64,000 bases of DNA from Pelagihabitans pacificus. Its GTDB lineage: Bacteria; Bacteroidota; Bacteroidia; Flavobacteriales; Flavobacteriaceae. The stretch covers positions 372,001 through 436,000 of the forward strand of contig NZ_VIKU02000002.1 in assembly GCF_009371985.2 (NCBI RefSeq). The letters run 5' to 3'. This document shows positions 37,769 to 64,000 of this stretch, in pieces (within the stretch, counting starts at the first letter, position 1; each line of letters starts with the position of its first letter). A model generated the notes under the pieces. The model was not told where the DNA came from. It saw nothing but the letters and a program-made list of their open reading frames with translations, and searched no databases. The translations under genes and the position numbers were made by a program.

Positions 37769-37789
37769 ATTAGCTAAGATTGAGGTGTG

Positions 37790-37797
37790 CAAATATA
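37790..37797 (-). promoter_or_regulatory. -7 promoter box for the TonB receptor at 34937-37768
   Basis: On the minus strand this reads TATATTTG, an exact TAnnTTTG match 22 bases before the ATG at 37768. The -33 element is not evident. Confidence 0.5.
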
Positions 37798-46850: not shown

Positions 46851-46872
46851 AGGTAAAGGTTTAGGACACTTA

Positions 46873-48177
46873 TTATTGATGTGCCGCAATTTCGTTCGCG
46901 GTCGGAGGCACCGATACTGTTTTCATCAATTCCCCTTTATCCCCATCGTACGTTTTGGTGATTGGGTTTCCGTTTCTTGTCAAGCCTTCAAAAATCCCCT
47001 TATCGACCAAATCCCAAATAGCATATTTTGCCTGGCCGTTTATCGTAAACAGTCCAAAGTGATTTTCAGACCCCTTGGCGTTTTGGGCATCTTTCCAAGG
47101 CTCGTTAAAGGCTTCGAAATAGAAACACGATATACCCGATTCATTGGTCCAATCCCTCATGAGTCGGTGATACAAGCCTTCCTTATACTCGTCGGTCGCC
47201 TTTGAACCGGTAGGGCCGTAATGGCCGTTTGAAACCGTGGCCCAGCCTGTTTCACCGATATGAATGGGTTTGGAAATTCCAAGACTTTTTAGGTAGTTGG
47301 ATACGCTATCATATTGTGATTTTGCAAATTCCAATGCCCGCACCATGGCCGCATCGATTTTTTCGATATCCGATAGTGCCTCCTGATCTTCAGGAACACC
47401 CCAAAATGCTGGATTGTAGTGTGTGTTATGATAGGGATAGGTATGCATCGAAATATAGTCGACGGCCCGCACCAGTTTTTCCAGATCCCCGGTGTGATAG
47501 CTTGCATCTCCCCCACCCCAGGACGAAAAGTCATCCGAGCTCGTTATCCATAAATCCTTTGGTAATGTTCCCGCCCTCTTTAGGTCCTGTAAGTGATTTA
47601 CCCATTTCAGAATGACACTCGGCTGTACATAATAGCTTGTAGCCCAGGTGACCATGGCCTCATTACCTACCGCGATTATTTTAACGATATCGGGATACAG
47701 TTTTGCCAATCTGACGGCTTCCTCGATCTCCACCGCATTCCTTACACTTTCCTGATGATGATCGGGTTCTTGATCGGTCCATGCATTTTTACAGTCGATC
47801 CATGCACCGAGCATCACATACATTTCGAAACCCGGGTCTTCTTTCTTCAATTCGCTGATCGCTTGTAAGACATTCGAGGCATGAGGCAAATGAACCTTGT
47901 AAGTACGTATAATTTTTACGCCCATTGCCGCCAAGATTTTCATATCTTCCTTAAGCTCGTCCAGAGTAGGCTCAATGTCATGGTCTACATGTCGATACCC
48001 GCCATAGGACATGGCCAAATACGCCGGGTTTCCTAGAATATCCTTGGCACTTACACTTGATTCCTTTGTCACTTTTTCCGTTTTGTTTTCTGTTTCCGAA
48101 TTGTTTTTGCATGAGAACACCAATGCTATGAGCAGCATAATGGTGATCATCGTAGTACTTTTTTTTCGATTCTTCAT
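46873..48177 (-). CDS. GH17 lipoprotein
   Basis: A 434-residue GH17 enzyme with lipoprotein signal (LIALVFSC), started at ATG 48177 (MKNRKKSTTM), which follows GAGG. Acid/base Glu lies in IIAVGNEAMVTW and nucleophile Glu in IHIGETGWATV. It is about 130 residues longer than the cytoplasmic GH17 of this locus, mostly from the signal, a low-complexity Thr/Glu/Lys linker and loop insertions. It would hydrolyse linear beta-1,3-glucan in the periplasm or at the cell surface. It follows the phosphorylase gene by about 15 bases. Confidence 0.92.
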   Translation of the reverse strand: MKNRKKSTTMITIMLLIALVFSCKNNSETENKTEKVTKESSVSAKDILGNPAYLAMSYGGYRHVDHDIEPTLDELKEDMKILAAMGVKIIRTYKVHLPHASNVLQAISELKKEDPGFEMYVMLGAWIDCKNAWTDQEPDHHQESVRNAVEIEEAVRLAKLYPDIVKIIAVGNEAMVTWATSYYVQPSVILKWVNHLQDLKRAGTLPKDLWITSSDDFSSWGGGDASYHTGDLEKLVRAVDYISMHTYPYHNTHYNPAFWGVPEDQEALSDIEKIDAAMVRALEFAKSQYDSVSNYLKSLGISKPIHIGETGWATVSNGHYGPTGSKATDEYKEGLYHRLMRDWTNESGISCFYFEAFNEPWKDAQNAKGSENHFGLFTINGQAKYAIWDLVDKGIFEGLTRNGNPITKTYDGDKGELMKTVSVPPTANEIAAHQ

Positions 48178-48192
48178 ACCTCTATCCACTTT

Positions 48193-51100
48193 TCATTTCT
48201 CCATTGACACAATGATACTTTCCACCTCTCCCGTTCTTCCAAATATCCTGTTGCTGGTTTTCGAGTCAAGTTGATGACCAATGGTTTCCATCGATGAACC
48301 ATCGGCCATGAGCACTTTCAAACCTGTAGCCTCGGATAATTTATAGACCATGGGTACTTGGCAATAGGTGAAGCCAAGGGAATCTTTTTCCAATTCCATA
48401 TTCTTCACTTCGCCACCGACCGATATGTAGGTGAAGGTTGAAGCGTTTTTTAAAAATTCCTCTTTTCGCAACAACCGTGGGTCGAAGGTTAACCTTCCTT
48501 CTTTCACAAAAACACCCAACTCCCCGAACCTACTTAGAATGTCTTCTTTCACTTGGCCTGTCATACCCGGTTGCTGAGCGCCTTTGCCTGCTGGCGTGTG
48601 GGAATACGGGTCCGTTGGAAAAGCACCGTACAATTCCGGGGACTTATGTACCCCAATGCCTTCATTGATTTCGTAATAATGCGCTAACAACTTCCCTATG
48701 GTTTCCTCACTTTCTTTTTTTTCAATGGCTCTTAAGCAGGTTTCCTGAACGGCCAGTAATAGCTTTGAGACCATGTGCCAGTAAATAGAGCCAAGACCCT
48801 CATAACCGAAGAAGGTTCCAGACCGCCCCGTGAACGACTTATGGTCGAAAACCTCTTCAAAAATATCCAATAAAAGCTGCCTATCTTTAGTAATCCATTC
48901 GTCATATTCATTCGGTAACTGCGACAAGGCTTTTTTTAAGCTTTCGGCATTGTTGAAAGAACCGTTGAAATGATAGTCGCCATTGATATCTTTCTCAATT
49001 ATCTGTGAATTATCATCATTCAAAAGCTGTTGTACCAAGGTTGATTTTTCTATTTCTTCAGATGGGATGTTGTTCTTTTCGGTAAAACGAGGCAATTCCT
49101 TATTCGGATACAGGATGTAGCTATATTGATCGGGTCTAAACAGCGTACTATTCTTAAGCGCATCCAATACGCTCAAGGACGCTTTTGCCGAGAGATAGCC
49201 GGCACTTAAAACGGCTACCTGACCCTCGAGCATTTCCGACAGGTAAGAAATAGATACCTCCGTATTGTTTTTAACGGTCATCAAATTGTAGGCATGGTAT
49301 AGATTATCTTCGCGTTTGTTGGCCTCAATACTATGCTCAAGGTATGTAAGGCAAACCTGAACAAACTGCAATATGTCCCCCCTTGTTATTTTCTCCTTCT
49401 TGGAAGCAAAACCATTTTCATAAATGGTCTTTCTGTATTGGCTACCTGCATTCCCCAATCCGTCCATCACTGTTTTCCTGTCCGAGTCCGAAACTTTATT
49501 GGAAAGAATGGGTAGGTTGACGAGAAGTGTATCCCGTACCCCATTAAAGAATGCGATCAGTTCTTTTGAGATTGGATATTCTTCTTCCGACGTATGTTGA
49601 ACCAAGCCTTCGAAAAACTTTAAAAATCTTCTCAGGTAGTAAAGGGTCACCATGGAAACACCGTTACCCACCAGCGCATTATTGGCATCGTTCCATTCCG
49701 GTCGCTGCGTATTCATCCAAATACCTGCTTCAGGGATAAAATTGGATACTTTTGCCAATACCGTAGCCAACAGTTTTTCCAGTAGGTTGACCTGATAGAT
49801 GGATTGGTCCGCACCCTTTAACAAGGCCGCATCGGCTCCTTTCCGCTCCCGGTCCCTGTTGATTTCAGCATCCAATTCGGCATCAAAGACAATGGTGTCC
49901 TTCGGGTTTTTGAGTACATCGGCATAGTCCTTTATCTTATAGGGTACATTGGCGTATACGAACATGTCTTGGTTAAAATAGGCAGCCAGTTTGTTCGGGT
50001 AATGGTTTTCAATGAATTCCAGAAATTTCAAAAGATAAATAATCTGATGATCGCCCCAATACCCGATGTATGACCAGGGGTCGTCCGGTTCGATAGCCTC
50101 CCAGTCGAAGCCGTCTTTCGTGACCCTGTACGGGTTGTAACCATCAAAGGTTGTGGCATTGAGAAACTTATGGATCATACTCTCGATAAACGCCGGATAG
50201 GAATGCGCCAACGCCTCCCAATTTTGAAAAATATCGCGCCAGTTTCCCTCATAGTCCAATACTTTTTTACCATCATCCGTCTCCGTGTTGATTGAGAATT
50301 TATTCCACGGACGGCTTGGATCACCGTGCCTTCTACTAAATTTCAACGGCATGTACTCCAAAGCCAGTCTTTTGAAATTGCTGTTATGCTCGTTATCGGC
50401 CAGCTGTTTCAAGTAATTAAGCCCAAACTCCTCCGGAAGTTTTTCCAACGCTATCCTCTTTTCTTGGTATACTTCCTTATTCGCGTTTTGAATATACTGT
50501 ACAAAATCAGCCTTCTCAATGGTATAGTTGTTATCAAAAATACCACCCCGCATGATGTTGAAGAGCGTGTTTGAAAAGTGACGGGTATTCCTCAATTTAT
50601 CAGCCGTCAATTGCATGGCATCTGCCCCTGCGTTTAACGCCAAGAGGTTCTTTGATCCTTTTTCAATGTCTTCTAGAACGATTTGGGACAGGTTTTTCCT
50701 GTTCTTTATTTTGTCGGTAATCTTTGCAATAGCCCCCCGAGACTGATTTACCTCCGCCACGATCATCCAATGCCTTTCATCCCCGGATTTCAAGGAGATA
50801 TCGGCACAAACAAAATAGGCTCCCTTTTCGGCCTTTACAGCCGTCTCTTGTCGGAGTTGGTGCCCTTTTCTGAATGCATCCAATTGTAGGGAAGAAACCA
50901 AATAGGTCGCATTATTGATTCCAGTGGACCAGACCGTGGTCGCTTTTAAGGCTTCACTGGGTTCGGCCCGATCCACAATGATTGCGCTTAGGGCATAAAC
51001 ACCGAGGCCATACTCGGCTTCCAACTCATTTTTTTTGTACGCATCCACCAAGTTGCTACTATTGTTTTGCAAAGCGGAATTGACACCATAAGGCATAATG

Positions 51101-51648
51101 TTCTGAATGCCATCCAAAACTGTTATTTCAATCGCCTCATCGCGATTATTCCCAATAGTCGCCCTTTTAACAAAACCAAATTGACTACTTGAATTCCAAT
51201 GGTATCGAAAAGTGAGTCCCAAATCATCATTGACCTCCTCAAAAACAATTTTATTACCGTAACTATTTTTATAAAGATTTCTGTGGATAGTATAAATACC
51301 TGAATACCTATTGGAAAAAGGTTCCCATAGATGCGTTTTACCATCCAGATGAAGCTGGAATATGGTTTTACTTCCCGTTATATCGGCAGATTCGGTGATT
51401 TTATCATCGGTATAATATGGAAACAACGCCGATTCGGAATTTTTTCTTCCAGCGGATAATCCACCATTGCTCGATATAAACATCCAGTGATTGGAATCAC
51501 TTACAATGCTCATAAAGAACGGACGCATGGCATCGTAGTTCGAAATTTTATAATAAACTTCGTTTTCAAAGACTACTTGTTTCCCGTTTACCGCGTCTGC
51601 ATCATAAACCGCCTTTTGATTTCCTATAAAAATTGAATTTGTGCCCAT
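48193..51648 (-). CDS. Beta-1,3-glucan phosphorylase, GH149/GH161 type
   Basis: A 1151-residue cytoplasmic protein (no signal peptide) resembling large inverting phosphorylases related to GH94. The N-terminal beta-sandwich (VYYKISNYDAMRPFFM, WMFISSNGGLSAGRKN) is followed by an (alpha/alpha)6 barrel with GNWRDIFQNWEALAH, where Asp is the probable general acid, and WSYIGYWGDHQIIYLL. C-terminal blocks include NDANNALVGNGVSMVTLYY and SHTPAGKGAQQPGMTGQVKED. GH149 and GH161 members phosphorolyse beta-1,3-oligoglucans to glucose 1-phosphate; length and the GH17/GH30/GH16 context favour this role and GH149 slightly over GH161. Confidence 0.85.
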   Translation of the reverse strand: MGTNSIFIGNQKAVYDADAVNGKQVVFENEVYYKISNYDAMRPFFMSIVSDSNHWMFISSNGGLSAGRKNSESALFPYYTDDKITESADITGSKTIFQLHLDGKTHLWEPFSNRYSGIYTIHRNLYKNSYGNKIVFEEVNDDLGLTFRYHWNSSSQFGFVKRATIGNNRDEAIEITVLDGIQNIMPYGVNSALQNNSSNLVDAYKKNELEAEYGLGVYALSAIIVDRAEPSEALKATTVWSTGINNATYLVSSLQLDAFRKGHQLRQETAVKAEKGAYFVCADISLKSGDERHWMIVAEVNQSRGAIAKITDKIKNRKNLSQIVLEDIEKGSKNLLALNAGADAMQLTADKLRNTRHFSNTLFNIMRGGIFDNNYTIEKADFVQYIQNANKEVYQEKRIALEKLPEEFGLNYLKQLADNEHNSNFKRLALEYMPLKFSRRHGDPSRPWNKFSINTETDDGKKVLDYEGNWRDIFQNWEALAHSYPAFIESMIHKFLNATTFDGYNPYRVTKDGFDWEAIEPDDPWSYIGYWGDHQIIYLLKFLEFIENHYPNKLAAYFNQDMFVYANVPYKIKDYADVLKNPKDTIVFDAELDAEINRDRERKGADAALLKGADQSIYQVNLLEKLLATVLAKVSNFIPEAGIWMNTQRPEWNDANNALVGNGVSMVTLYYLRRFLKFFEGLVQHTSEEEYPISKELIAFFNGVRDTLLVNLPILSNKVSDSDRKTVMDGLGNAGSQYRKTIYENGFASKKEKITRGDILQFVQVCLTYLEHSIEANKREDNLYHAYNLMTVKNNTEVSISYLSEMLEGQVAVLSAGYLSAKASLSVLDALKNSTLFRPDQYSYILYPNKELPRFTEKNNIPSEEIEKSTLVQQLLNDDNSQIIEKDINGDYHFNGSFNNAESLKKALSQLPNEYDEWITKDRQLLLDIFEEVFDHKSFTGRSGTFFGYEGLGSIYWHMVSKLLLAVQETCLRAIEKKESEETIGKLLAHYYEINEGIGVHKSPELYGAFPTDPYSHTPAGKGAQQPGMTGQVKEDILSRFGELGVFVKEGRLTFDPRLLRKEEFLKNASTFTYISVGGEVKNMELEKDSLGFTYCQVPMVYKLSEATGLKVLMADGSSMETIGHQLDSKTSNRIFGRTGEVESIIVSMEK

Positions 51649-51721: not shown

Positions 51722-53263
51722 TTATTTTCTAATCAACAATTCCTCCACTTCCTCCAAGGTTTTTCCTTTGGTCTCAACCACGTACTTATAAACAAAGAGA
51801 ATCGCACAAAGGGAAAGTAGGGCATAGATCCCAAAAGTAATCGTAGGACCCAGATTTGATAGTTCCCAAGGGAAAACCTGGGTGACCGAAAAACTTATCA
51901 GCGAGTTAAAAAAACCAACCACGGATATTGCGATTCCCTTTATCTTACTGGGAAAAATCTCGGAAATTAGGGTCCACATCACAGGACCCAGGGAAATCGC
52001 AAAAGAGGCTACGTACAACAGAATGGCAACGAGCACCAAGGTAGCATTTATCCGTATAAAGTTGGTAATCCGGTTTCGCTTAAAGTCTAAAAACTGATTC
52101 GCAGTCAACTTTGATTCCACTTCTTTAAACAGCGCTGCCTGTCCTTCAAATGATCTACCATCCAAATCGGATAGGGCCATCCTCATTTCTTGGTCGTCAA
52201 TTTTACCCAGTGTCTCCCCGCTAAAACTGTAGGAAGCGTTGTTAAAAGCGACAGCTGCCATTACCAAGGCAATGGTCATACATGTGGTGCCTATCAATAA
52301 CAGGGGTTTTCTTCCCAACTTATCGATCAACCAAATGGCAACCAAGGTAAACACCAAATTGGTCAACCCTACAACAATTGCCTGAAGAAAAGAGGAATCG
52401 GTCGTGCCACCGGCTTGTTCAAAAATGGTCGGGGCATAATAGAAAATGGCGTTGATTCCTGTAATCTGTTGAAAGAACGCGATCCCAAAAGCAATGATCA
52501 TTATGGTCGTATACTTGTTTTGAAACAAATCGGAAAGCGTTCCTTTCTTCTCCTTCTTTGCGATTCCCCGTTGTATTTCCGAAATGGTTATTTCGGCATA
52601 TTCCTCACCACCGATCTTCTGTAGGATTTTGCGGGCCAATTGAACCTTGTTCAGTTTTTGAATGAGCCATCTAGGACTTCTTGGTACCGTAAAGAGCGCC
52701 AGGAAATAAATCAAGGCGGGGATGGCTTCCACGCCTAACATCCACCGCCAGCTTTCCCCCTCCAAATTGACCAAAAAGTAATTGGAAAAGTAGGCAACCG
52801 AAATGCCGATAACGATATTCAATTGATTGAAGGAAACCAAACTTCCTCGAAGTTTGGGTGGGGCTATCTCCGCAATGTACACGGGCGCTATCAAGATAGC
52901 ACCACCTATGCCGATACCGCCTATGATCCTCGCCGTGATAAATTCAATATACCCGGTGGCCAAAGCCGACCAAGTTGCCGATATCGTAAAAAGGGCCGCC
53001 ACAACGATCAATACTTTTTTTCTGCCAAATTTATCCGCTAACGGGCCCGCCATCAGATTTCCCGCCATTGCGCCAAAAATCACACACCCTACCGAAAAGC
53101 CCAACATCCATTCGGTCATTTCAAAATATACGGTTATTCCTTTAACGGCTCCTGAGATGACGGCACTGTCGAAGCCCAAAAGGAATCCCCCCAACGCAAC
53201 GATCAGGCTGATCAACACCGTGTAGGATTTGTTCATTTTGATTACGTCGTCGGTTGTTTCCAT
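51722..53263 (-). CDS. Sugar-porter MFS transporter (XylE/GLUT type)
   Basis: A 513-residue sugar porter when started at ATG 53263 (METTDDVIKMNKSYTV), which follows an AGGA-like site; the longer frame adds 36 atypical residues. Family motifs are present: GPLADKFGRKK after TM2, PRSPRWLI after TM6, QQITGINAIFYYAPTIFEQAG in TM7, LIDKLGRKPLL after TM8, and VVETKGKTLEE at the end. A hydrophilic insertion of about 60 residues lies between TM9 and TM10. It probably takes up glucose released outside the inner membrane by GH30 and other enzymes, complementing the GPH transporter. It is in the middle of the glucan operon. Confidence 0.92.
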   Translation of the reverse strand: METTDDVIKMNKSYTVLISLIVALGGFLLGFDSAVISGAVKGITVYFEMTEWMLGFSVGCVIFGAMAGNLMAGPLADKFGRKKVLIVVAALFTISATWSALATGYIEFITARIIGGIGIGGAILIAPVYIAEIAPPKLRGSLVSFNQLNIVIGISVAYFSNYFLVNLEGESWRWMLGVEAIPALIYFLALFTVPRSPRWLIQKLNKVQLARKILQKIGGEEYAEITISEIQRGIAKKEKKGTLSDLFQNKYTTIMIIAFGIAFFQQITGINAIFYYAPTIFEQAGGTTDSSFLQAIVVGLTNLVFTLVAIWLIDKLGRKPLLLIGTTCMTIALVMAAVAFNNASYSFSGETLGKIDDQEMRMALSDLDGRSFEGQAALFKEVESKLTANQFLDFKRNRITNFIRINATLVLVAILLYVASFAISLGPVMWTLISEIFPSKIKGIAISVVGFFNSLISFSVTQVFPWELSNLGPTITFGIYALLSLCAILFVYKYVVETKGKTLEEVEELLIRK

Positions 53264-53407
53264 TTCCTGTTTTTTGAATTGCCCAAAATATAGGTCAACC
53301 AATACATTGATTGCCTTTGCTTTAAAAGTAAGGCTAAACTTTGGAAAAAAGCTAGCAACCGGACACTCCAAGCCAGCCTTTTTCCAGTATTGTTGTGTAC
53401 TACCCGA

Positions 53408-55825
53408 CTATTCCAGGATTAAATCATCCAAATAATATGTGCCTCCGGAAGTGATAGGGCTATCCGTCTGGTCATTATCCGGTTTTATAACCAATTGGCT
53501 GTATGACGTCGGTGAGGCAGGTAGGTTTATGAACGTAAATTCAACCTCTGTCCACTCATTGGCATTTGGAATGGTTACAAAAACCGGGGCTGGATTTCCG
53601 ATGCTACCATCGTTCGGATTGGCAAGCAGCTCAAACCTAAAAACCACGTTGGCTTTTGTGGAATACACTTTGACTTTGAATGTATCGGTCGTGGTTAAAT
53701 CAAAATTTGATGGAAATACATTTTGAATTCCTGCAAAGAAATCCGAGCCCGTAGGCTTGTCTACCTGCAAAACAAAATCAGAGGTGTTGATACCGGTCTG
53801 GAACGGATTCGCGACCAGTTCCGAGGTAATCCCCGCTCCAAAATTCTGGGAAGAAAGGAACGTTTCACAGCCTTCGAAATCTAATGGAAGCGCTGTAGCC
53901 GCTATTTCGGTATCGGTACATCCACCACTACCCCCACCGCTACTGGCCGTGTAGAAAAACACATTGTCCACAAAGATGTTCGCCTCTAGCCCATCACCCA
54001 GAACGTCGAAGATGATCTGGTTGATCGTCGGGTCGTCGGGCAACGGCCCTTCACTACCGAGTGAGGGTACCAAATCGGCAAGCGCCACATCGATGCTATT
54101 CCATTGGCCACCTGTCAAGTTCACCTCTACGTCCTCCCTGGAAACAGGGTCGGTAAAGGAAATGAGACCGGCCCTGAACGAAACATCCTCGGCCACCCAA
54201 ATGTCCATACTGAAGTGGGTCCTTCCGTCAAAACCTGTATCATTCTGTAGCCCCACGAAATTGGTGTTGGCATAGCTCCATACGTCATCACCGGCCACCT
54301 GGATCTCCGAGAACGTGGCCCCGCCATCGTTGCCAAATGCCCTGGGGTTGGTCCCCGATGCGTCGGTGTAAGCATTACTGAACACCGAAGTCACGTTCGC
54401 CGCATCCTGGGTCGGTGCTGGTGCCGCCATGGTCGGTTCGGTGGGCATTCCACCACCATCGGCGGTATAGAAAAACACATTGTCCACAAAGATGTTCGCC
54501 TCTACCCCATCACCCAGAACGTCGAAGATGATCTGGTTGATCGTCGGGTCGTCGGGCAACGGCCCTTCACTGCCGAGTGAGGGTACCAAATCGGCAAGCG
54601 CCACATCGATGCTATTCCATTGACCACCTGTCAAGTTCACCTCTACGTCCTCCCTGGAAACGGGGTCGGTAAAGGAAATGAGACCGGCCCTGAACGAAAC
54701 ATCCTCGGCCACCCAAATGTCCATACTGAAGTGGGTCCTTCCGTCAAAACCTGTATCATTCTGTAGCCCCACGAAATTGGTGTTGGCATAGCTCCATACA
54801 TCATCACCGGCCACCTGGATCTCCGAGAACGTGGCCCCGCCATCGTTGCCAAATGCCCTGGGGTTGGTCCCCGATGCGTCGGTGTAAGCATTACTGAACA
54901 CCGAAGTCACGTTCGCCGCATCCTGGGTCGGTGCTGGTGCCGCCATGGTCGGTTCGGTGGGCATTCCACCACCATCGCCGGCGTTTTGAACAATATTATC
55001 CACTAAGAAAGTACCCTCAACCCCAGGATCAGCATTAAACCCAATAAATAATATCATTTGACCATATTGACCATCCGGAACCAAAGGCTGCCCATTTTGG
55101 GAATCACCATCAATGAAACTAGCTACTGCATCGACGGCAAAGTCAAAACTTAAGGTTTCCCAGCCAGAACCGGTATGCGTTGTCAAAACTTCTACATCCC
55201 TAGCTCCGCCCTCACCGTTTTCAAACTTGACCAAAACAGCGATTTGTTCAGAAGAAAACAACTCCAACTGAATCGTCTTATTTTCACCGCCAAAGTCTAC
55301 TGCCGTTCCCAAAGGGAATTGCACATTTTGGAATTGACCGCCACCGGCTATCATTTGTCCAACATTGGTGGTGTTTCCATTGCCCGTTTCGGGGTTTGTT
55401 ACTATCGAGAAGCCGATATTGTCCCCTACAATGGCATCATAACCAACATTGGTGCCGTCAAAAACAATGGGCAATGCTATTGGCGCCAGAGGTTCCGGGA
55501 TACTGATGGTAATTTCATCCTCAAAAGTATCCGAGGCCCCTGCTACGTTTGAAGCCTCCAACTTTACCGTGAAGGTACCACTGGCAAAAGTTTTGACGGG
55601 ATTGATTTCCGTAGAGGTATCGCCGTCACCAAAATCCCATTTATAGGAGCTTGCCTCTTCGGAGATGTTTATAAACGTAACCGTACCCGTGTCCCCGTTT
55701 TGAGTAAAGGTAAATCCGGCCACTACTTTCGGCAAATTCGCATCGTCGTCTTCATCGCAACCAAAAAAGGATACGGCCAAGGTGAATATGAAAACAAGCT
55801 TGGACTTTCTTATTAATTCTTTCAT
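53408..55825 (-). CDS. PKD- and CBM-like-domain surface lipoprotein with duplicated module
   Basis: An 805-residue lipoprotein (AVSFFGC, Cys23). A PKD domain spans about residues 32-110 (YKWDFGDGDTSTEINP), then a beta-sandwich module (112-285), two almost identical 172-residue modules (about 290-630), a Gly/Ser linker, and a C-terminal beta-sandwich (645-805). No catalytic motif is visible. In Bacteroidota glucan loci such multimodular lipoproteins are surface glycan-binding proteins, so it likely holds beta-glucan at the cell surface. The duplicated modules resemble the C-terminal module of the lipoprotein at 56728-58149. It lies 12 bases after the GH16 gene. Confidence 0.85.
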   Translation of the reverse strand: MKELIRKSKLVFIFTLAVSFFGCDEDDDANLPKVVAGFTFTQNGDTGTVTFINISEEASSYKWDFGDGDTSTEINPVKTFASGTFTVKLEASNVAGASDTFEDEITISIPEPLAPIALPIVFDGTNVGYDAIVGDNIGFSIVTNPETGNGNTTNVGQMIAGGGQFQNVQFPLGTAVDFGGENKTIQLELFSSEQIAVLVKFENGEGGARDVEVLTTHTGSGWETLSFDFAVDAVASFIDGDSQNGQPLVPDGQYGQMILFIGFNADPGVEGTFLVDNIVQNAGDGGGMPTEPTMAAPAPTQDAANVTSVFSNAYTDASGTNPRAFGNDGGATFSEIQVAGDDVWSYANTNFVGLQNDTGFDGRTHFSMDIWVAEDVSFRAGLISFTDPVSREDVEVNLTGGQWNSIDVALADLVPSLGSEGPLPDDPTINQIIFDVLGDGVEANIFVDNVFFYTADGGGMPTEPTMAAPAPTQDAANVTSVFSNAYTDASGTNPRAFGNDGGATFSEIQVAGDDVWSYANTNFVGLQNDTGFDGRTHFSMDIWVAEDVSFRAGLISFTDPVSREDVEVNLTGGQWNSIDVALADLVPSLGSEGPLPDDPTINQIIFDVLGDGLEANIFVDNVFFYTASSGGGSGGCTDTEIAATALPLDFEGCETFLSSQNFGAGITSELVANPFQTGINTSDFVLQVDKPTGSDFFAGIQNVFPSNFDLTTTDTFKVKVYSTKANVVFRFELLANPNDGSIGNPAPVFVTIPNANEWTEVEFTFINLPASPTSYSQLVIKPDNDQTDSPITSGGTYYLDDLILE
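53952..54977. repeat. Near-perfect 516-bp tandem duplication within the binding lipoprotein gene
   Basis: The segment 53952-54461 recurs at 54468-54977 with period 516 bases (172 codons). By direct reading I count five single-base differences, and only one changes an amino acid (Val versus Leu). The frame is kept, so the duplication doubles one binding module. The very low divergence implies a recent duplication or ongoing gene conversion. Confidence 0.95.
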
Positions 55826-55837
55826 AGTAATTCGTTT

Positions 55838-56713
55838 TTAGTTTGCGTTTGTGTTTTTATAGACCCTCACATAGTCTACCAACATGGTTTGTGGAAAAAT
55901 AGTTTCTTCGTTAGGGGAGCCGACAAAAGTGCCACCAACAGCTAGGTTCATAAGTATGTAGAAGGGTTTATTGAAGACCCATGTTCCTTCACCATTAGTT
56001 TCCTCGTCGACATCTTCAGGGGTAATTTGATTGTAAAGGATATCATCAACATAAAAATTGATGAAATCGGGACCCCATTCGATACCGAATATGTGGAAAC
56101 CGGTGTCAAACCGGTCATTTTCCAGTTTGTATTCCTTGGATATCGCATTTCCACCGGAATATCCGGGACCGTGTATGCTACCTATCAGAACGGTCGGGTC
56201 CTGCCCGCGATATTCCATGATATCGATTTCCCCTGCACCAGGCCATGGGTTTTCATCGATATCGGCCCCCAGCATCCAAAATGCGGGCCAAATGCCTTGC
56301 CCGTACGGCAAACGGATTCGCGCTTCAAAACGACCGTACCGTTGCTCGAACAAATCTTTGGTCAACAGTCTTGCCGACGTATAGCCCGAACCTTGAAAAT
56401 CTTCTTGTTTGGCAGTTATCAATAAATTCCCGTTCTGTACGGTCACATTCTCCGATCGGTCGGTGTAGTATTGTAGCTCCTGATTGCCCCAACCGTTTTC
56501 GCCGGTACCTATATCATAGGCCCATAGAGTGCTGTTGGGAGCACCATCGACATCAAACTCGTCTTGCATGGTCAGCTCGGTAAAGGTCGCCACGGTCTGG
56601 GTGTCCTCTGTTTCGCAGCCCGATGTAAGCCCAAGTGAGATTACTATTGCGCATTTTAGAGCAATAGATCGTATTGTTTTTATCTGTATATGTTTCATAA
56701 CCATTCTTTTCAA
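55838..56713 (-). CDS. GH16 endo-beta-1,3-glucanase (laminarinase) lipoprotein
   Basis: A 291-residue GH16 enzyme with lipoprotein signal (GLTSGC, Cys33). The catalytic block GEIDIMEYRG holds nucleophile Glu162, Asp164 and acid/base Glu167 in the ExDxxE form that includes a beta-bulge Met, as in laminarinases. WGNQELQYYT and GIWPAFWML are typical of the GH16_3 group. It would cut laminarin internally at the cell surface. A second ATG five codons later is possible. It sits between two binding lipoproteins with gaps of 12 and 14 bases, so all three are co-transcribed. Confidence 0.95.
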   Translation of the reverse strand: MKRMVMKHIQIKTIRSIALKCAIVISLGLTSGCETEDTQTVATFTELTMQDEFDVDGAPNSTLWAYDIGTGENGWGNQELQYYTDRSENVTVQNGNLLITAKQEDFQGSGYTSARLLTKDLFEQRYGRFEARIRLPYGQGIWPAFWMLGADIDENPWPGAGEIDIMEYRGQDPTVLIGSIHGPGYSGGNAISKEYKLENDRFDTGFHIFGIEWGPDFINFYVDDILYNQITPEDVDEETNGEGTWVFNKPFYILMNLAVGGTFVGSPNEETIFPQTMLVDYVRVYKNTNAN

Positions 56714-56727
56714 TTTTCAGGACTGCA

Positions 56728-58149
56728 CTATTCTGTATAGAAGTAAATGTTGTCAAATATGAAGTTCGGACCGCCTATTAATATGAGGGCTCCAAGATTG
56801 TTTCTCTGGGTAGCCAAATCTCCGTCAAGTGGTATATCAAAGGAAGTCCATTGGCCTACTGTTAGATTATTTAAAGTGAATCTAAGGTCCACATCATCCC
56901 CGATAGGGAATCCTGTATTTACATCCGTTTCAAGTTCTTGGTTGGCTCCGACATCCCTAATTTGAATTTCCACCTCAGTGCCAGCAGCCTGTGCATAAAC
57001 ATCAACATGTAGGAAAGTCCGTGCCGAGGCGTCTACCGTATTTTCAAATATAATTCCAGTAAAGTTATTGTTGGCATATGTCAGGACCGCATCACCGTTG
57101 GTCGTAGTAATCGACGTCTCTGTGGTCGATCCGCCAAAACCTGGTGAAAAATTGCTTTCCGTAACATTCGGATAAACATCACTAAATATAGAACTTACAT
57201 TGGCTGCAGGTCGTGTTGGTGTCGGGGCCGCTTGAAGGCCACCTATAGACGTTACTTCCAGAGATCCCTGTGCCCCCACATTTGCCAGTTGAGCCGTAAT
57301 AGTTGCCGTTCCTTCACCGATAACGGCAACTTCCCCCAACTCATTTACTTGAGCGACATCAACATCGGAAGAGGTAAACTTAAAATAGGAAGGTGCAGCA
57401 ATCACCGTTTGGTTGATTCCAGATTCCAAATTAAAGGTTTGCGTAAGACCTCCCAAAATCAGATTGGAACCCGTAAAGGCTTGCTCTGTAACGTCTTGGC
57501 CGTTAAAAATGGCCGGACGGGGTTGTGCTATCGTCCCCAGCTTTTCAAACTTTACTTCATCTAACCAAAAGGTATATCCGAACCCAAATGTTAAATTAGT
57601 TCCCGCTGAAAACCAAAGCATTCCCCTTTCTTCAATGAGTTTTGAGGGGTCGGGAATGGGAATAACATATTTTACCCAGTTGGTACTCAGGGCGACATTC
57701 GTCCTCGTTACTTGAAATTTGTTTTCCACGAAGTCCTGCCCAAAACCAATTTCCCCGATAATTACACCTTGGGAAGCTTTTGCATAAAACGTCAGTGCAT
57801 CGAATTGTGTCAAATCCCTTCCCGACCCATCTATTCTAAAGATGGCACCGGCAAAACTCCCTTCCGGATCATCGGCGTTGGGGACATCAATCCGGATAGA
57901 GGCGTCACTTTCGAAACCAACCTGCTCATCGACCGAAAAAGCGGTGGCCTTCGCGTTCAGAAAAGGAAAATAAAAATCACTTCCCAAACCTACGGGCGCA
58001 TCGGTAAAAACCTCACCCGAGTTATTAAAAGTTGCAAACTCCACATCCTCCGAAAACTCCCTTTCACAACTGAAAAAAACAGTAATACCGAAAGCCAGAA
58101 GAAGTACAAATCGTACGTTACTATATTTGAAATTTTTCATCTTTTCCAT
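56728..58149 (-). CDS. Surface glycan-binding lipoprotein with Big-type and CBM-like domains
   Basis: A 473-residue lipoprotein (TVFFSC) started at ATG 58149 or, three codons later, 58140. The N-terminal beta-sandwich (about residues 50-220) is followed by a bacterial Ig-like Big_2 domain (SSDVDVAQVNELGEVAVIGE) and a C-terminal module (PTRPAANVSSIFSDVYPN to FDNIYFYT). That last module resembles the duplicated modules of the 805-residue lipoprotein. No catalytic motif is seen. The likely role is capturing beta-glucan at the cell surface in the absence of a SusD. The gene follows the barrel-fusion gene by a few bases. Confidence 0.83.
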   Translation of the reverse strand: MEKMKNFKYSNVRFVLLLAFGITVFFSCEREFSEDVEFATFNNSGEVFTDAPVGLGSDFYFPFLNAKATAFSVDEQVGFESDASIRIDVPNADDPEGSFAGAIFRIDGSGRDLTQFDALTFYAKASQGVIIGEIGFGQDFVENKFQVTRTNVALSTNWVKYVIPIPDPSKLIEERGMLWFSAGTNLTFGFGYTFWLDEVKFEKLGTIAQPRPAIFNGQDVTEQAFTGSNLILGGLTQTFNLESGINQTVIAAPSYFKFTSSDVDVAQVNELGEVAVIGEGTATITAQLANVGAQGSLEVTSIGGLQAAPTPTRPAANVSSIFSDVYPNVTESNFSPGFGGSTTETSITTTNGDAVLTYANNNFTGIIFENTVDASARTFLHVDVYAQAAGTEVEIQIRDVGANQELETDVNTGFPIGDDVDLRFTLNNLTVGQWTSFDIPLDGDLATQRNNLGALILIGGPNFIFDNIYFYTE

Positions 58150-58153
58150 CTTT

Positions 58154-61100
58154 TTATTGCCCGATATTGATATGTACATATGTCATGATTTCCCACTCTT
58201 GCCCATTATCAAAGCCGACCGGGCTCAGAATAGGTTCGGGGGGAAATGTATTCGGTGGTACAGCGATTGGCGAATAACGAGGTGAGAACTCGTTTAGTGA
58301 TCGCCATGTACCGCGGATGCCTACTTGAGTACTGGGCAAAATGAACCAGTCAGGTTTACCAAGGGTGGTAGAAATATCCAACATCAATTGGACCGGGAAT
58401 GTTAAGTTAAAATCTCGATGGTAATCATAAGGTCCCCAATCATTAATTTTTTGGGTGTACTGTAATCTAAATTTTTTATAAATCATTCGAACGTCGCCAC
58501 CGAAACGCCTAATTAATCGCTCTGAATCTCCATTCCCCTGTCCATTTCCATAGTAGAAATTACCGATAATACCCAAATCCGGTCCAAGTTTAGAGACCAT
58601 TCTGGAGTGGACTTCCCATAAGTCTTCCGCGGGGGCCGAATTGGGAAAGGCGAAGAAGGTCCGATCGGCCTGAAACCCGATATGGGCGTCCATTGTGGTC
58701 GGGAGATGACGATAAACGAAGCCCAAATTCATGGCAAACTTTGCATCTTCGGAGCGGTCATTGTCCCATTCATACATCCAGGTGCCGGGAGTCGGGTCAT
58801 ATGTAATCAGCAGTTCACCGGCCGTGGTCTCCCTGTTCGCACGAACCGAGAAAGGATCGTCAATGATATTTCGTAGGCGTCCGGGCCCCTGAACATCATT
58901 GGGCATGGCGTCGACCAACGGTTTTTGCCACATAAAATTGGGGGCGATCTGGAAATTTCCGGCTGCAAAGGTAAATCCGGATAAAATATTTACTTGGTTA
59001 CCGCTTCCCGTATCCCTCAGCTTCCATCCGGTAAAGGTCAGTGTTTGATCGGCACCACCATTGGCAATAAGACCCATCGCGGCAGTTTGACCGTACCAAT
59101 TGAATTTACCACCTTCATAGGTAATCTTTAATTTACCTCCCCAGTTGTCGCTTGCTTGTATTCGATCTTCATATACCACGTAGTTGCCCGGGGTACCCCT
59201 AACATCCTGAAAGGTAATACCGTTCAATGGGCTCCCAGCCCAAATACCCCCTAGCTCTACGCCGAATTTACCAAACTCCCTTTCCACTGCTAGCGCGGCC
59301 CTTTCGGTAGGCCATGGGGGAATTACACCACTTCGTACCTGATTTGCGTCCAAAATGCGTCGGCCGTTGTCGTCCAACACTACTTCCGTTTCAAAATCCC
59401 TATGATAAATACCGGTTACATCAAATTTTCCAATATGTTTTTGGTACTTGAAAAGCATGGTAGGATTTGCTCCCCACCATAATTGGGGACCTATGGCCGC
59501 TTTTAAACCTTTTAGCACCCCTTTTCCATCGATCTCCGCCCCGAGTATCTCCCCATTGTAGATATCCAAGTTCGGACCGTAATTGGCCTCCGGATAGAAC
59601 CCAAAAAAGTCTCCCTCATAGCCCCAATGGTAATGGCCAGTTCTGTAAAACCCCCTTAAATCGAATTCTTTTGCCTTCCACTCAAACTCCGCTTGATATA
59701 CGGCAACCCTATTATTGTCGGCCAATACTACATCACCATCGGGAGAGGTTACCGTAATGGGTCTAGCCCTATTTTCGTAAAATATCTCGTTTATAGGGTT
59801 TTGGGCTACATTCCCTACCACGTTGAGATTCACCTCGGCTCGCATATTCGGTGCCGGGTTGCCCTCTACCCCGATAAAATAGGACTGCATATGATCAAAT
59901 CCCAATTGGTTCGGAAACGTCAGGGGATCATCAGGGTCGGCATTGTCCGGAGTTGTAATCAAGCTGCCGCCTGTACTGAAGGTCGCCAATTTCGCCTGTA
60001 GGTTGCTTATGCGCAGTAATTTGCTTTGTTCCCCCAACAGGGCGGCCCTGTCGCCCCTAGCCTTTAAAACCGCTTCCATGATTTCGATATTATCGAAATG
60101 GTTTTCTACAAAATCCAAGTCGACCCCTTCTTCATACGGATTCAATTGATGTGCTTCCTTTAATGCATAGTAGGCCGCACGCGGGTATAGATCGTACAAA
60201 CCCCTAGGATTGGTCGGCCCTTTGGCACAGATGCCGAACCACTCCTCGTTCATATTATTTGCCCCGGGAGCCGCCAGATCTATGGCGTATCCCCCGTTGG
60301 ACCATGAAGCATTGGTGTCGTGCACGTCGGCATTTTCCCTGTCGTCGAAACCAAACTTCCACCACCCATCACTAAACTGGAAAGTAAATCCACCTATAGA
60401 GTTCCCTACTTTCCCCAGGCCTGCCGCATTTTCATAAATTTCCTTCCAATTGCCTACCATATAATAAGCCTGGGCTTTTTGATCTTCTTTATTTTCGATC
60501 GCGTTGAAAGCATCCGCCCCAAACTCGGTGAACAGCACAGGTTTGTTCAATTTGTCCTTTACCACCTGGAACATATCACCAAAAGAAACACCTCTGTATG
60601 TATTGGTACCATAAATATCGATATCCGGGCATTCCTCTGCGACAATATCGATAAAAAGCACATCTCCGTTACATATGGCTACCGGATGCGAACCATCCAT
60701 CGCCTTCATCATTTTCGCAGCTTCGTTCATTAAACGATACATTGGACGACCACGACTTTCCCCTATGAATTCCTTTTCTTTTTCATCATCGGGAAAATCC
60801 TCGGTTTCCGCTCCTGCCCAGAATAATCCGTAGTTATTCTCGTTCCCCAGTAAATAAAGTAAGAGACCAGGTGTATCCTTATAGCCCTTCACCAACTCTT
60901 CCATTTCAGACATCAGGAATTCTTGGGTTTTAGGGTCGTCATAGATCGTTACAGGAGTCCATACACCATCTAATGTTAATCCATACCGCCCAAACGAATG
61001 ATTAAGCATGGTATAAATACCATAATTCTCATAGATATACTTGATCCATTTGGCAGGGACCCCAGTATATTGACGTATGACATTTACGTTCATGTTTTTT

Positions 61101-61354
61101 AAAAGCGACATCTCCGTATCGAGTCCGGCTTTGATCACATCGTCGGACTTCTTCCAGAATTCGGCATTGACCGTATTGGTTCCTATTGGAATGTAATCCC
61201 AATTCATGCCATTGATCATAAATTTCTCACCGTTTACGACCAATTGCGTTCCATTTTCATCCTGTAAAACCTCCACCTTGGCGGTTTGGGCAAAGGTGAA
61301 GGTAGTAAGGAAGAAAAAGGTTAGTTTGAGTAGTTTTTTCTGAAGTGCATTCAT
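58154..61354 (-). CDS. Clan GH-A glycosidase fused to a C-terminal beta-barrel-like domain
   Basis: A 1066-residue exported protein (signal peptide residues 1-22). Residues 30-400 form a TIM barrel like those of GH2, GH5 or GH72 (MINGMNWDYIPIG, NVIRQYTGVP), with acid/base Glu172 in LLGNENNYG and nucleophile Glu277 in LFTEFGADA. After a helical linker (about 425-465) the last 600 residues are rich in alternating Gly/aromatic strands (FDVTGIYHRDFETEV, FGVELGGIWAGS, FQIAPNFMWQKP, MTYVHINIGQ), resembling an outer-membrane porin barrel. It is the first gene of the glucan operon. It could be a membrane-embedded glucan hydrolase or transglycosylase, perhaps also a pore; the latter is inference. Confidence 0.78.
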   Translation of the reverse strand: MNALQKKLLKLTFFFLTTFTFAQTAKVEVLQDENGTQLVVNGEKFMINGMNWDYIPIGTNTVNAEFWKKSDDVIKAGLDTEMSLLKNMNVNVIRQYTGVPAKWIKYIYENYGIYTMLNHSFGRYGLTLDGVWTPVTIYDDPKTQEFLMSEMEELVKGYKDTPGLLLYLLGNENNYGLFWAGAETEDFPDDEKEKEFIGESRGRPMYRLMNEAAKMMKAMDGSHPVAICNGDVLFIDIVAEECPDIDIYGTNTYRGVSFGDMFQVVKDKLNKPVLFTEFGADAFNAIENKEDQKAQAYYMVGNWKEIYENAAGLGKVGNSIGGFTFQFSDGWWKFGFDDRENADVHDTNASWSNGGYAIDLAAPGANNMNEEWFGICAKGPTNPRGLYDLYPRAAYYALKEAHQLNPYEEGVDLDFVENHFDNIEIMEAVLKARGDRAALLGEQSKLLRISNLQAKLATFSTGGSLITTPDNADPDDPLTFPNQLGFDHMQSYFIGVEGNPAPNMRAEVNLNVVGNVAQNPINEIFYENRARPITVTSPDGDVVLADNNRVAVYQAEFEWKAKEFDLRGFYRTGHYHWGYEGDFFGFYPEANYGPNLDIYNGEILGAEIDGKGVLKGLKAAIGPQLWWGANPTMLFKYQKHIGKFDVTGIYHRDFETEVVLDDNGRRILDANQVRSGVIPPWPTERAALAVEREFGKFGVELGGIWAGSPLNGITFQDVRGTPGNYVVYEDRIQASDNWGGKLKITYEGGKFNWYGQTAAMGLIANGGADQTLTFTGWKLRDTGSGNQVNILSGFTFAAGNFQIAPNFMWQKPLVDAMPNDVQGPGRLRNIIDDPFSVRANRETTAGELLITYDPTPGTWMYEWDNDRSEDAKFAMNLGFVYRHLPTTMDAHIGFQADRTFFAFPNSAPAEDLWEVHSRMVSKLGPDLGIIGNFYYGNGQGNGDSERLIRRFGGDVRMIYKKFRLQYTQKINDWGPYDYHRDFNLTFPVQLMLDISTTLGKPDWFILPSTQVGIRGTWRSLNEFSPRYSPIAVPPNTFPPEPILSPVGFDNGQEWEIMTYVHINIGQ

Positions 61355-61624: not shown

Positions 61625-64000
61625 TCACAACTTTAAAATGTAGCCTACTAAATTGTCTCCCTGCCGTAAATCCATTTTTTTGCGAAGTCTATAGCGCTTT
61701 ATTTCAACACTTCTCGGTGAAATATGTAGCAGTTGTGCTATCTCTTTTGAAGATAGGTTTAAACGCAAATATGCACACAATCGAAGGTCGTTGGGTGACA
61801 GATTCGGATGTAAGGCCTTAACTTTTTTTAAGAATTCGCTATCGGCATTGTTGAAAGCTTCCTGGAAAAGTTCCCAGTCGTCATTCCTGTTAAGACTCTT
61901 ATCTATGATTTTGATTACCGGCCTCACCATCTCTTTGTCCTCTATGGAATTCAGCTCATTTTTAATATTGGTAAGCAACTCATTTTTCTTGATAATGCTC
62001 ATGGTCGAAGCTGCCAATTCCTTACTCTTGCTTTTATTCTCTATTTCCAGTCGCTCGTTCTTGATTCTTATAATTTCCTTCTCGTTTTGAACTTGGGTCA
62101 ACTCCAACTCACGTTTGTTTTTTTCTATAAGTTTTTGACGTTGCTTCCTATAATACCGTTTGTAGGCGAAATGCATAAAGAATGAAAGCAGTACCATTCC
62201 CAATACATAAAGAGCGATCATCACGTTGGAGATGTACCAAGGTTTTGCTATCACAAAGGAATACGATGCCGTATTGTTCGACATTGTATTCCCAATTTTT
62301 GCCCTAAGGTCGAAGGTATATGCACCAAAAGGGAGGTTCTCATAAAACACCTCGGCCTTTTCCGACCAATTGCTCCATTCGTCGTACATTCCCTTTAGCC
62401 GAAATTGGTATTGTGTACTTAAATACTTGTTGTAGACCGGAGCGTAGAAGGAAAAGTTGAAATTGTTTTCATTGCTTGCAAAACTACCTTCCGTCATTTG
62501 GTCGAGTAGCGTTTCGTCGGTATTATCGCTGTTGGTAATACTGCCTATATAAACACCAAAATCCTTAGGTTTTATTTCATTGATATTGAATGTTAAATAC
62601 CCAGAGGTTTTTCCTACCAAATAGGTGCCGTCCTCATTTAGCTTAATAATACTTTCATAGCCTAGGATGTCGCCCCTCATTTCTTTTGTCAAGGGCACAT
62701 TTTTTATTTTCAAGGAATTGGTCAAGCCTATGGGTTCGAAAAAACTGATGTTCGATTTGTTGAAAATCCATAATTTTTTGTCCTCCTCATGGACTACTAG
62801 CTTCCCGGATTCATATTCTTCCTCTGTATACGCCCTACTTAAAAGACTGTCTGTCACAAACCTTTGGTCGTCCTCGTCGTAATGGAGAATACCGTTTTTA
62901 TAGGCATATAATAAGTTGCCATTGTATTTCACCAGTCCCGAATTGGAACCTTTTAGAAGCGTATCCTTCACCATATGTTTTACTCCGAAAAAGGAATCAT
63001 CCACCTCTATTTTAAACACCCCGTTATACTCATGGTTTACGAAGATTTGATTGCCCAACGTTTCAAAATACCTAGATGAATTGTTAAAACCACTGATCTT
63101 ATTTCGTAGCCTCCACGAATCACCCGATCTTACCAGTACATACAACCCATCATAGTTGCCCTGAAGTAACAGACCCGGCCTATTGGGCAGCTTACCCATA
63201 TTCCATGCCCCTTGAATACTTACTATTTTGGTGGCTTGGTCACCCTTAATTTCAAAAGTTCCGGAATTATGGCCACACAACAGTTTTCCATCAATTTCTT
63301 TCAAAAACCATACCTGTTCCTGGGTACCGTTGATAAACCTAAAACCATTGTTACCATTCAGTGGCTTATAAAATAATCCCTGATTTGTTCCGAGGTATAA
63401 ATTACCGTCGTACACCGCAGATGCATAAACACTGCCTAAAACTCCTTTGGTATCGTTGAACACCCGGTAGGGTGCTTTTAAATTCACATAACTGACGCCA
63501 TGATCAAGTCCCGTCCATATATTGCTATCAATATCCTCAAAAAGCGACAAAACCGTATTGTTGGACAAGCCAGTATCCTGATTGATCCGATACAATAATT
63601 CTCCGCGGTCACTTAAATAGAGTAAACCGTCGGATACAGACCCCAAAACAAAACTTTTATCCCTTAACTGGATTCCCGCATACAAACTAAGATTTGATAA
63701 AAAGGTATTTGGAAAGGCGTTCGACGGTACCAGCACATCATTTTCCAAGGTATAGAAACCATTATTTTTTGTGAGAATCAAGAGATCCTTCCCACTACCA
63801 AAAATGTTTATGACCTCATCATTTCTAACGATGTCATCCTCAAAAAGCAAAAAATCGCTGCCTGATTCCAGTTTAAATATCCCCTCTCCCATCCTTTGAA
63901 AATAGATGTTTTGATCGATTTCGAACATTTTCGTGATGGTACTTTCGGAATCAATCGTTTTCACCATTCCGTTGTTTACATTCCATATGTATATCCGTCT
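61625..64000 (-). CDS. Propeller/Y_Y_Y/LuxR-type transmembrane transcriptional regulator (cut by right edge)
   Basis: About 791 codons are visible and the frame is open to the window edge, so the N-terminus is missing. The periplasmic part has two-component-regulator propeller repeats (NIWTGLDHGVSYVN, LYLGTNQGLFYKP) and a Y_Y_Y domain (YQFRLKGMYDEWSNW, LPFGAYTFDLRAKIG). One membrane helix (ISNVMIALYVLGMVLLSFFM) is followed by a coiled coil rich in Lys/Glu and a C-terminal LuxR-type helix-turn-helix (LSSKEIAQLLHISPRSVEIKR). There is no kinase or receiver domain. Such SusR-like proteins sense oligosaccharides in the periplasm and activate the neighbouring locus directly. Confidence 0.92.
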   Translation of the reverse strand, partial: RRIYIWNVNNGMVKTIDSESTITKMFEIDQNIYFQRMGEGIFKLESGSDFLLFEDDIVRNDEVINIFGSGKDLLILTKNNGFYTLENDVLVPSNAFPNTFLSNLSLYAGIQLRDKSFVLGSVSDGLLYLSDRGELLYRINQDTGLSNNTVLSLFEDIDSNIWTGLDHGVSYVNLKAPYRVFNDTKGVLGSVYASAVYDGNLYLGTNQGLFYKPLNGNNGFRFINGTQEQVWFLKEIDGKLLCGHNSGTFEIKGDQATKIVSIQGAWNMGKLPNRPGLLLQGNYDGLYVLVRSGDSWRLRNKISGFNNSSRYFETLGNQIFVNHEYNGVFKIEVDDSFFGVKHMVKDTLLKGSNSGLVKYNGNLLYAYKNGILHYDEDDQRFVTDSLLSRAYTEEEYESGKLVVHEEDKKLWIFNKSNISFFEPIGLTNSLKIKNVPLTKEMRGDILGYESIIKLNEDGTYLVGKTSGYLTFNINEIKPKDFGVYIGSITNSDNTDETLLDQMTEGSFASNENNFNFSFYAPVYNKYLSTQYQFRLKGMYDEWSNWSEKAEVFYENLPFGAYTFDLRAKIGNTMSNNTASYSFVIAKPWYISNVMIALYVLGMVLLSFFMHFAYKRYYRKQRQKLIEKNKRELELTQVQNEKEIIRIKNERLEIENKSKSKELAASTMSIIKKNELLTNIKNELNSIEDKEMVRPVIKIIDKSLNRNDDWELFQEAFNNADSEFLKKVKALHPNLSPNDLRLCAYLRLNLSSKEIAQLLHISPRSVEIKRYRLRKKMDLRQGDNLVGYILKL

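Follow-up and report, generated by a model that had tools for sequence, protein, structure and literature searches.

A glycoside hydrolase fused to a predicted outer-membrane beta-barrel in a laminarin-type locus of Pelagihabitans pacificus

Results

Architecture and conservation of the fused gene

We analysed 64,000 nt of the genome of the flavobacterium Pelagihabitans pacificus (assembly GCF_009371985.2, contig NZ_VIKU02000002.1, positions 372,001 to 436,000), referred to here as the window; coordinates count from its first letter, and all features of the locus described lie on the minus strand. The gene at 58154-61354 encodes a 1066-residue protein that joins a glycosidase to a predicted outer-membrane beta-barrel, as judged from its open reading frame (ORF), Pfam matches and AlphaFold2 models. 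A predicted signal peptide (residues 1-22; 61289-61354), recognised by eye as a hydrophobic stretch followed by FA-Q and lacking a lipobox, precedes a TIM-barrel domain of glycoside hydrolase (GH) clan GH-A and the helices after it (residues 26-440; 60035-61279; assigned by Pfam, model, and fold and profile matches). The predicted outer-membrane barrel follows (residues 447-1066; 58157-60016; 26 strands in the model). A loose lipobox pattern matches just two of 115 fused relatives. Pfam assigns Glyco_hydro_2_C (PF02836) to residues 36-286 (28.3 bits, with a cut-off of 21) and no other domain to the protein at E<=10; this widespread gene carries a name that covers less than half of its length. 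An earlier note on this sequence had described a complete GH-A barrel followed by about 600 residues of porin-like strands, in a gene at the head of a glucan locus, and each of these descriptions was borne out, the strand-rich part spanning about 620 residues.

The fusion is no artefact, and it is conserved in other Bacteroidota, where the earlier note had proposed looking for it. Full-length matches occur in 33 of 395 sampled Bacteroidota genomes (P. pacificus included; one has an internal stop and one is cut at a contig end), and 63 of the 395 have a match at E<=0.001. A contig scan confirmed at least 589 relatives, of which the best 80 (68-87% identity) were kept, and records of Bacteroides finegoldii and Persicobacter in a plasmid collection hold further full-length relatives. 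No viral contig matched either of the two patterns used. The 139 loci that we examined comprise 80 named loci and 59 hand-picked from match lists, and are not a random sample; 115 carry the fusion and 24 a standalone TIM gene encoding about 450 residues. Less than 7 kb of upstream sequence is available for 16 of the 115 fused and nine of the 24 standalone loci. Examples from outside the 139 are a TIM-only gene (G332, on a 3,075-base contig), broken G235, contig-end G627, G699 and G686, and several fused loci (e.g. G100, G163, G144, G318, G066). The B. finegoldii record (L250, NZ_OY725931.1, 'plasmid 29') includes valine-tRNA ligase and rpsA and looks chromosomal, although it is listed as a plasmid; its version of the operon has no SusC/D annotated in the stretch shown, for which the gene table is incomplete.

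The enzyme domain is probably related to beta-1,3-glucanases

The two catalytic residues expected of clan GH-A are present. Glu172, the predicted acid/base (codon 60839-60841), follows Asn171 after strand beta4 within the motif GNENNY, and Glu277, the predicted nucleophile (codon 60524-60526), lies at beta7 within TEFG; both assignments draw on sequence, model and conservation, and both residues are identical in 115/115 fused and 24/24 standalone relatives (139/139). These two positions agree with the clan GH-A arrangement described for the endo-laminarinase BuGH158 in the sections of that report considered here (PMC7157763).

A profile built from ten fused and standalone TIM domains had BuGH158 as its top solved match (E 2.3e-7, in three pieces), followed by GH158(Pro), then by GH2 beta-galactosidases and a GH157 enzyme. 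When folds were compared with VIA-align 2 (VIA), five entries for GH158 endo-beta-1,3-glucanases came first (Z 26.4-27.7; the best with 3.1 A over 283 residues), with GH2 glucuronidases (Z 26.3), a GH5 mannanase and a GH157 enzyme (Z 25.9 each) as runners-up, all four families falling within about 2 Z units. Since GH2, GH5 and GH157 score so close to GH158, the family cannot be named from fold alone, and the kinship with GH158 is partial and distant, the profile match being split into three pieces and the fold scores barely exceeding that of the GH2 glucuronidases. The accessory domains of these families are missing. Pfam finds neither the N-terminal sugar-binding domain nor the sandwich domain of GH2 at E<=10, the TIM barrel starting directly after the signal peptide, and there is no C-terminal Ig-like domain of the kind seen in BuGH158; the barrel stands there in fused forms, and TIM-only proteins end at about 450 residues. 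Given the profile and fold kinship with GH158 and the retention of Glu172 and Glu277 in all 139 relatives, the TIM domain is likely to be a beta-1,3-glucan-active retaining hydrolase.

The C-terminal domain is predicted to be an outer-membrane barrel

A barrel-only AlphaFold2 model, built from the query and the best 80 loci of the contig scan (81 sequences), has a predicted local distance difference test score (pLDDT) of 71.3 and a predicted template modelling score (pTM) of 0.69, and 26 strands were counted from its DSSP string; the corresponding scores of the full-length model (68 sequences) are 69.7 and 0.46. The earlier note had expected a closed barrel of 14-20 strands; an outer-membrane barrel is predicted, with a larger number of strands. 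Comparison with known structures, which the note had proposed as a check, places the model among outer-membrane barrels rather than stacked soluble sandwich domains in the matches listed. All 50 Foldseek matches listed are bacterial outer-membrane barrels, counting 4q35, which is titled merely 'membrane protein' and which we take to be LptD. Among the 50 VIA matches listed, 48 are bacterial outer-membrane barrels and the other two are mitochondrial VDAC1 and TOM. The structures matched include OprD-type porins, AlgE, maltoporin, sucrose porin, chitoporin, Wzi, pilus ushers and TonB-dependent receptors. The top VIA matches are OprD-type porins (Z 15.4, 4.3 A over 251 residues, model residues 74-496), and the usher PapC matches over the whole length (Z 14.6, 4.8 A over 373 residues). 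BtuB comes first in Foldseek; in VIA, BtuB, FrpB and PirA rank below the OprD-type porins.

Sequence statistics point the same way, although the strands used for the alternation, turn and facing tests were taken from the model and the tests are not independent of it. Hydrophobicity alternates between strand faces with a score of 1.27, compared with 0.72 +/- 0.10 for shuffled strands (116 aligned proteins; none of 2000 shuffles scored as high), and with 0.64 for the TIM strands used as a control. The 13 odd-numbered turns average 20.3 residues and the 12 even-numbered turns 4.2 (Mann-Whitney p 1.3e-4), with turn 18 as an exception that is long (20 residues) and conserved. Long turns on one side and short turns on the other are the usual pattern of outer-membrane barrels, and because the odd turns are long and the even turns short, both ends of the barrel are predicted to be periplasmic. 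Residues facing the lumen are more conserved than those facing lipid (entropy 0.93 vs 1.30 bits, p 4e-5; 60 sequences below 80% identity). An even count of amphipathic antiparallel strands, predicted short and long turns and matches to solved barrels thus support by prediction an outer-membrane beta-barrel at residues 447-1066. The C-terminus, HINIGQ, lacks the terminal aromatic residue of the beta-signal, as the earlier note had remarked, and the last strand is amphipathic nonetheless; near relatives mostly end in HINIGK, and others in IDIRN, INI and similar sequences.

Three loops are nearly invariant across the same 60 sequences. Loop 5 (residues 573-601; 59552-59638) is long, with a mean entropy of 0.26 bits and a length of 29 in all 116 rows; loop 7 (residues 623-631; 59462-59488) contains WWGANP and has an entropy of 0.17 bits; and loop 23 (residues 973-985; 58400-58438), WGPYDYHRDFNLT, has an entropy of 0.11 bits. 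In the model, these loops are candidates for filling the barrel lumen, and loop 5 may form a lumen constriction or a sugar-binding loop.

The predicted topology bears on where the enzyme works. The earlier note had offered two possibilities, cutting of glucan by an enzyme anchored in the outer membrane and cleavage coupled to passage through a pore. Surface cutting is less likely, because the turn pattern places the enzyme on the periplasmic side, and the same pattern favours coupled cleavage. Nonetheless, the barrel might act mainly as an anchor through which the hydrolase is passed to the cell surface, where it would cut beta-glucan outside, as in autotransporter-like display. In the classical type V layout, an N-terminal passenger enzyme is followed by a C-terminal barrel of 12-16 strands. 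The order of domains here is the same, and helices precede the first barrel strand in the full-length model. Moreover, the sections considered treat BuGH158 as an endo-glucanase that supplies its products to a TonB-dependent transporter for import, and which therefore acts outside (PMC7157763). Against this, 26 strands are predicted rather than 12-16, Pfam finds no autotransporter domain at E<=10, and GH16 could already fill the role of surface endoglucanase. Type V autotransporters are absent from the VIA matches listed, an absence that excludes nothing. The helix just before strand 1 looks like part of the enzyme, since two of the three TIM-only proteins that we inspected by eye terminate in a helix at the corresponding place, and only about six residues, within a low-confidence stretch, separate it from strand 1. 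Because the helix is shared with TIM-only forms and the linker is short, we favour an enzyme held at the mouth of the barrel over one passed through it, and we consider surface display unlikely.

A partner lipoprotein accompanies the fusion

Two findings go beyond the earlier note, namely the TIM-only relatives and a conserved partner lipoprotein gene. In the window, this gene (56728-58179) encodes a protein with a Big_2-like domain; its real start is probably the ATG at 58140, and a Cys is followed by the acidic, surface-export-like sequence EREFSEDVE. The gene after the fused gene belongs to this lipoprotein family in 112 of the 113 fused loci whose sequence extends far enough to reveal one (all except L235; the sequences of L064 and L066 stop short of it), and it lies 5-19 bases behind the fused gene in 81 of the 112, going by the ORF starts of each locus. 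By contrast, the family is found in none of the 24 standalone loci, in which the next gene is most often GH149 (17/24). A loose lipobox pattern matches 90 of the 112 lipoproteins, in some cases at a Cys that precedes the true one; among the 22 without a match, 19 have Cys-Glu/Asp/Asn-Arg in the first 50 residues, one is incomplete and two are unreadable there. The mature end is mostly Cys-Glu-Arg-acidic, which resembles known Bacteroidota surface-export signals. In profile searches, the lipoprotein matches Ig-like domains and, weakly, carbohydrate-binding modules, and gives no match to SusD. Two lipoprotein genes of the locus have similar domains, such that their labels could be swapped, although most alignments to the partner lipoprotein cover it from end to end.

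We also considered that the barrel might be a Wzi-like glycan-binding or structural anchor without a conduit, simply holding a periplasmic enzyme at the outer membrane. Wzi is indeed among the structural matches, and the enzymes of the 24 barrel-less loci have a lipobox by pattern in nine cases and by eye in about six more; since many barrel-less enzymes have a lipobox, membrane anchoring seems to matter and to be obtainable otherwise. However, mere anchoring would leave no need for a constant partner lipoprotein gene and would not call for strong conservation of lumen-facing residues and three loops. We regard a simple anchor as quite improbable.

The surrounding locus is a laminarin-type operon

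The fused gene and its partner lie in a laminarin-type operon. A separate regulator on the same strand precedes the fused gene (61625-63967; a sensor-regulator with a propeller repeat, a Y_Y_Y domain and a weak LuxR-type helix-turn-helix, distantly like the BT3442 family). Behind the lipoprotein gene follow, in order, a predicted GH16 endo-beta-glucanase (55838-56713); a PKD-domain protein that probably binds glycan (53408-55825); a sugar porter of the major facilitator superfamily (MFS) in the inner membrane (51722-53371); a GH149 beta-1,3-glucan phosphorylase (48193-51648; 1819.8 bits, with a cut-off of 1150; no signal peptide by eye in the first 60 residues); a GH17 enzyme (46873-48189); a GH30 enzyme (45366-46889); an MFS_2 sugar transporter (43750-45315); and a second GH17 enzyme, without a signal peptide by eye (42815-43723). 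The GH16, PKD, first GH17 and GH30 proteins each have a lipobox-like Cys by eye. A scan for promoters and terminators upstream found none. With neighbours labelled by their best blastp match to genes of the window, 108 of the 115 fused loci carry GH16 and 88 carry GH149; some of the loci are too short to extend to the GH149 position. SusC and SusD were sought with home-made profiles from one and two seeds, which distant members may escape; they detected SusD in 24 of the 115 fused loci. In 23 of these 24 it lies upstream of the fused gene and in the same orientation, and at least 13 rows have the order regulator, SusC, SusD, fused gene. In this set of loci, the fused gene and lipoprotein are the constant part and SusC/D is optional.

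The content of the locus bears on the direction of transport. The unit could export glucan or remodel glucan of the cell itself, in the manner of exopolysaccharide export barrels that act together with a periplasmic glycosidase, and AlgE is among the structural matches. However, the locus is degradative (GH149 phosphorylase, GH17, GH30 and MFS porters), and no synthase is present among the window proteins scanned. Furthermore, a Muricauda cluster is reported, in the sections considered, to correspond largely to a laminarin-induced Formosa cluster (PMC13188888). Export or remodelling is thus highly improbable.

Two stretches of the PKD lipoprotein gene, 53934-54233 and 54450-54749, form a direct repeat with 97% identity over 300 nt and a spacing of 516, which probably arose by recent duplication within the gene. 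Elsewhere in the window, a TonB-dependent receptor with a CarboxypepD-reg domain (34937-37792) lies near sugar-acid genes (altronate dehydratase, mannitol dehydrogenase family, FGGY kinase), and the SusD family is absent among the ten window proteins that were scanned for domains.

Interchange of fused and standalone forms and a probable loss of the barrel

A search of 296 genomes revealed no gene encoding the barrel alone. Barrel matches occur in 31 of these (32 rows), 28 rows lying in frames of fused length; the other four are pieces in G235 (the broken gene) and G204 (on a second contig), a remnant in G119 and a weakly matching TonB-dependent receptor in G262. A single fusion event without later change was rejected, since a tree of 76 TIM rows (52 fused and 24 standalone, including just 16 of L001-L080) requires nine state changes, at least seven of them forced by starred branches. 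At L122, a barrel remnant lies directly behind the standalone TIM gene (3411-3620, 35% over 71 residues; the same place as at L197), and at least one loss of the barrel, at L122/L197, is therefore likely.

More distant TIM proteins (21-27% identity) are encoded at L118 6160-7149, L121 6613-7458, L119 6226-7131 and L120 6689-7516; GH149/GH17 genes lie beside those of L118 and L121, and a GH16 gene adjoins that of L120 and lies about 6 kb away in L119. At L208, L210 and L231, the standalone TIM gene lies beside a reversed pair of genes encoding about 619 and 707-776 residues, with GH149 nearby on the other side.

Discussion

We consider it somewhat probable that the fused protein and its lipoprotein form a SusC/D-like pair in which a beta-1,3-glucan hydrolase is tethered to the periplasmic end of the barrel, together making up a laminarin-type uptake-and-cleavage unit. 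Surface GH16 would cut the laminarin polymer, the lipoproteins would hold the fragments, and the barrel would let them through the outer membrane. The tethered hydrolase would then cut or trim fragments as they enter, and GH17, GH30, the MFS porters and cytoplasmic GH149 would complete the breakdown. The barrel, its topology and the glucanase kinship are supported by prediction; we infer from them that the pore opens, that sugar passes and that passage is coupled to cleavage. Transport may also be independent of TonB, since no plug domain was found (Pfam gives neither a TonB plug nor a TonB-receptor barrel domain at E<=10).

Several observations weigh against this reading. Confidence in the barrel model is moderate (pLDDT 71), the strand count was read from a DSSP string, and most of residues 439-555 fall below a pLDDT of 50 in the full-length model. 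Foldseek TM-scores are low (0.24-0.36 on the query), and we therefore assign no particular barrel family. The top VIA matches span just residues 74-496 of the 642 in the model, and the matches that extend across the full model are to pilus ushers and TonB-dependent receptors. Loop-length variability does not differ significantly between the two sides of the barrel (p 0.07), and the long loops are not enriched in aromatic residues (0.115 vs 0.132). One weak match of the barrel sequence is to a TonB-dependent receptor (G262, E 2.2e-5), and kinship with TonB-dependent barrels is thus possible. For the enzyme, fold comparison does not separate GH158 (6pal, Z 26.4) from a GH2 glucuronidase (Z 26.3). 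The modelled topology, taken alone, is compatible with secretion of the enzyme through the barrel, and the low-confidence linker and the one TIM-only protein without the terminal helix slightly reduce our confidence in the uptake-and-cleavage reading and make a simple anchor slightly more probable. Lastly, among loci with 7 kb or more of upstream sequence, SusD is present within the retrieved flanks of 23 of 99 fused and 4 of 15 standalone loci (5 of 24 standalone loci overall). A strict replacement of SusC/D by the barrel fusion is rejected as a rule, the frequency of SusD being not clearly different between fused and standalone loci.

A further, tentative possibility, which we entertain with considerable doubt, is that the fusion defines a separate class of Bacteroidota importer. 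Such an importer would consist of a plug-less, TonB-independent barrel whose own hydrolase closes the periplasmic mouth, with a dedicated non-SusD lipoprotein at the outer mouth and cleavage pulling sugar in; it would mostly occur without SusC/D nearby, hidden under the name 'GH2 TIM barrel-domain protein'.

SusC/D is usually credited with the uptake of laminarin by Bacteroidota. The conserved enzyme-barrel fusion, together with its dedicated lipoprotein, would be another route that is open to testing, and could explain how laminarin-type loci can do without SusC/D. Laminarin represents a very large marine carbon flow, according to the portion of the literature considered (PMC11345257). The recurrence of the fusion and the partner lipoprotein among marine relatives of Bacteroides, many of which carry both, suggests that a mode of algal glucan uptake and cleavage has been overlooked.

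The unit described here resembles known systems in part. As with the SusC/SusD 'pedal bin' importers, a gene for an outer-membrane barrel adjoins a lipoprotein gene in a glycan locus; unlike in SusC/SusD, Pfam detects no plug or TonB-receptor domain, a hydrolase is attached to the barrel, and the lipoprotein is Big_2-like, with weak carbohydrate-binding matches and none to SusD. GH149 clusters both with and without susCD have been reported (PMC5827456, sections considered). The FbGH17b protein of Formosa, an MFS-GH17 fusion, likewise joins a hydrolase to a transporter in a laminarin locus, and coupling of cleavage to uptake has been proposed for it in the sections considered (PMC6246565); its transporter is a helical MFS protein, whereas here a predicted outer-membrane barrel is joined to a hydrolase of another family, and the fusion would be the outer-membrane counterpart of FbGH17b. 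Among solved structures, the GH158 enzymes (BuGH158, 6pal; GH158(Pro)) come closest to the TIM domain in the profile search and also head the fold list, with the same positions for Asn-Glu and for the second Glu; identity is only about 17-20%, and the barrel takes the place of the C-terminal Ig-like domain. A gene for a 'GH2 beta-glycosidase' in the laminarin polysaccharide utilization locus of Muricauda lutaonensis, described in 2026 (PMC13188888), is very probably an ortholog in the same operon, and contigs of two strains listed in that paper are among our loci (L010, L017). The sections of the paper considered name the gene GH2, and once GH2 beta-1,6-glucosidase, and make no mention of a barrel; in the main text, 'outer membrane' does not occur and 'SusC' occurs once, in a reference title. 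Our search of open-licence papers with narrow phrases found no description of a glycosidase fused to an outer-membrane barrel. An outer-membrane barrel with a lipoprotein partner is thus a known feature of glycan loci, and the new element is the enzyme built into the barrel.

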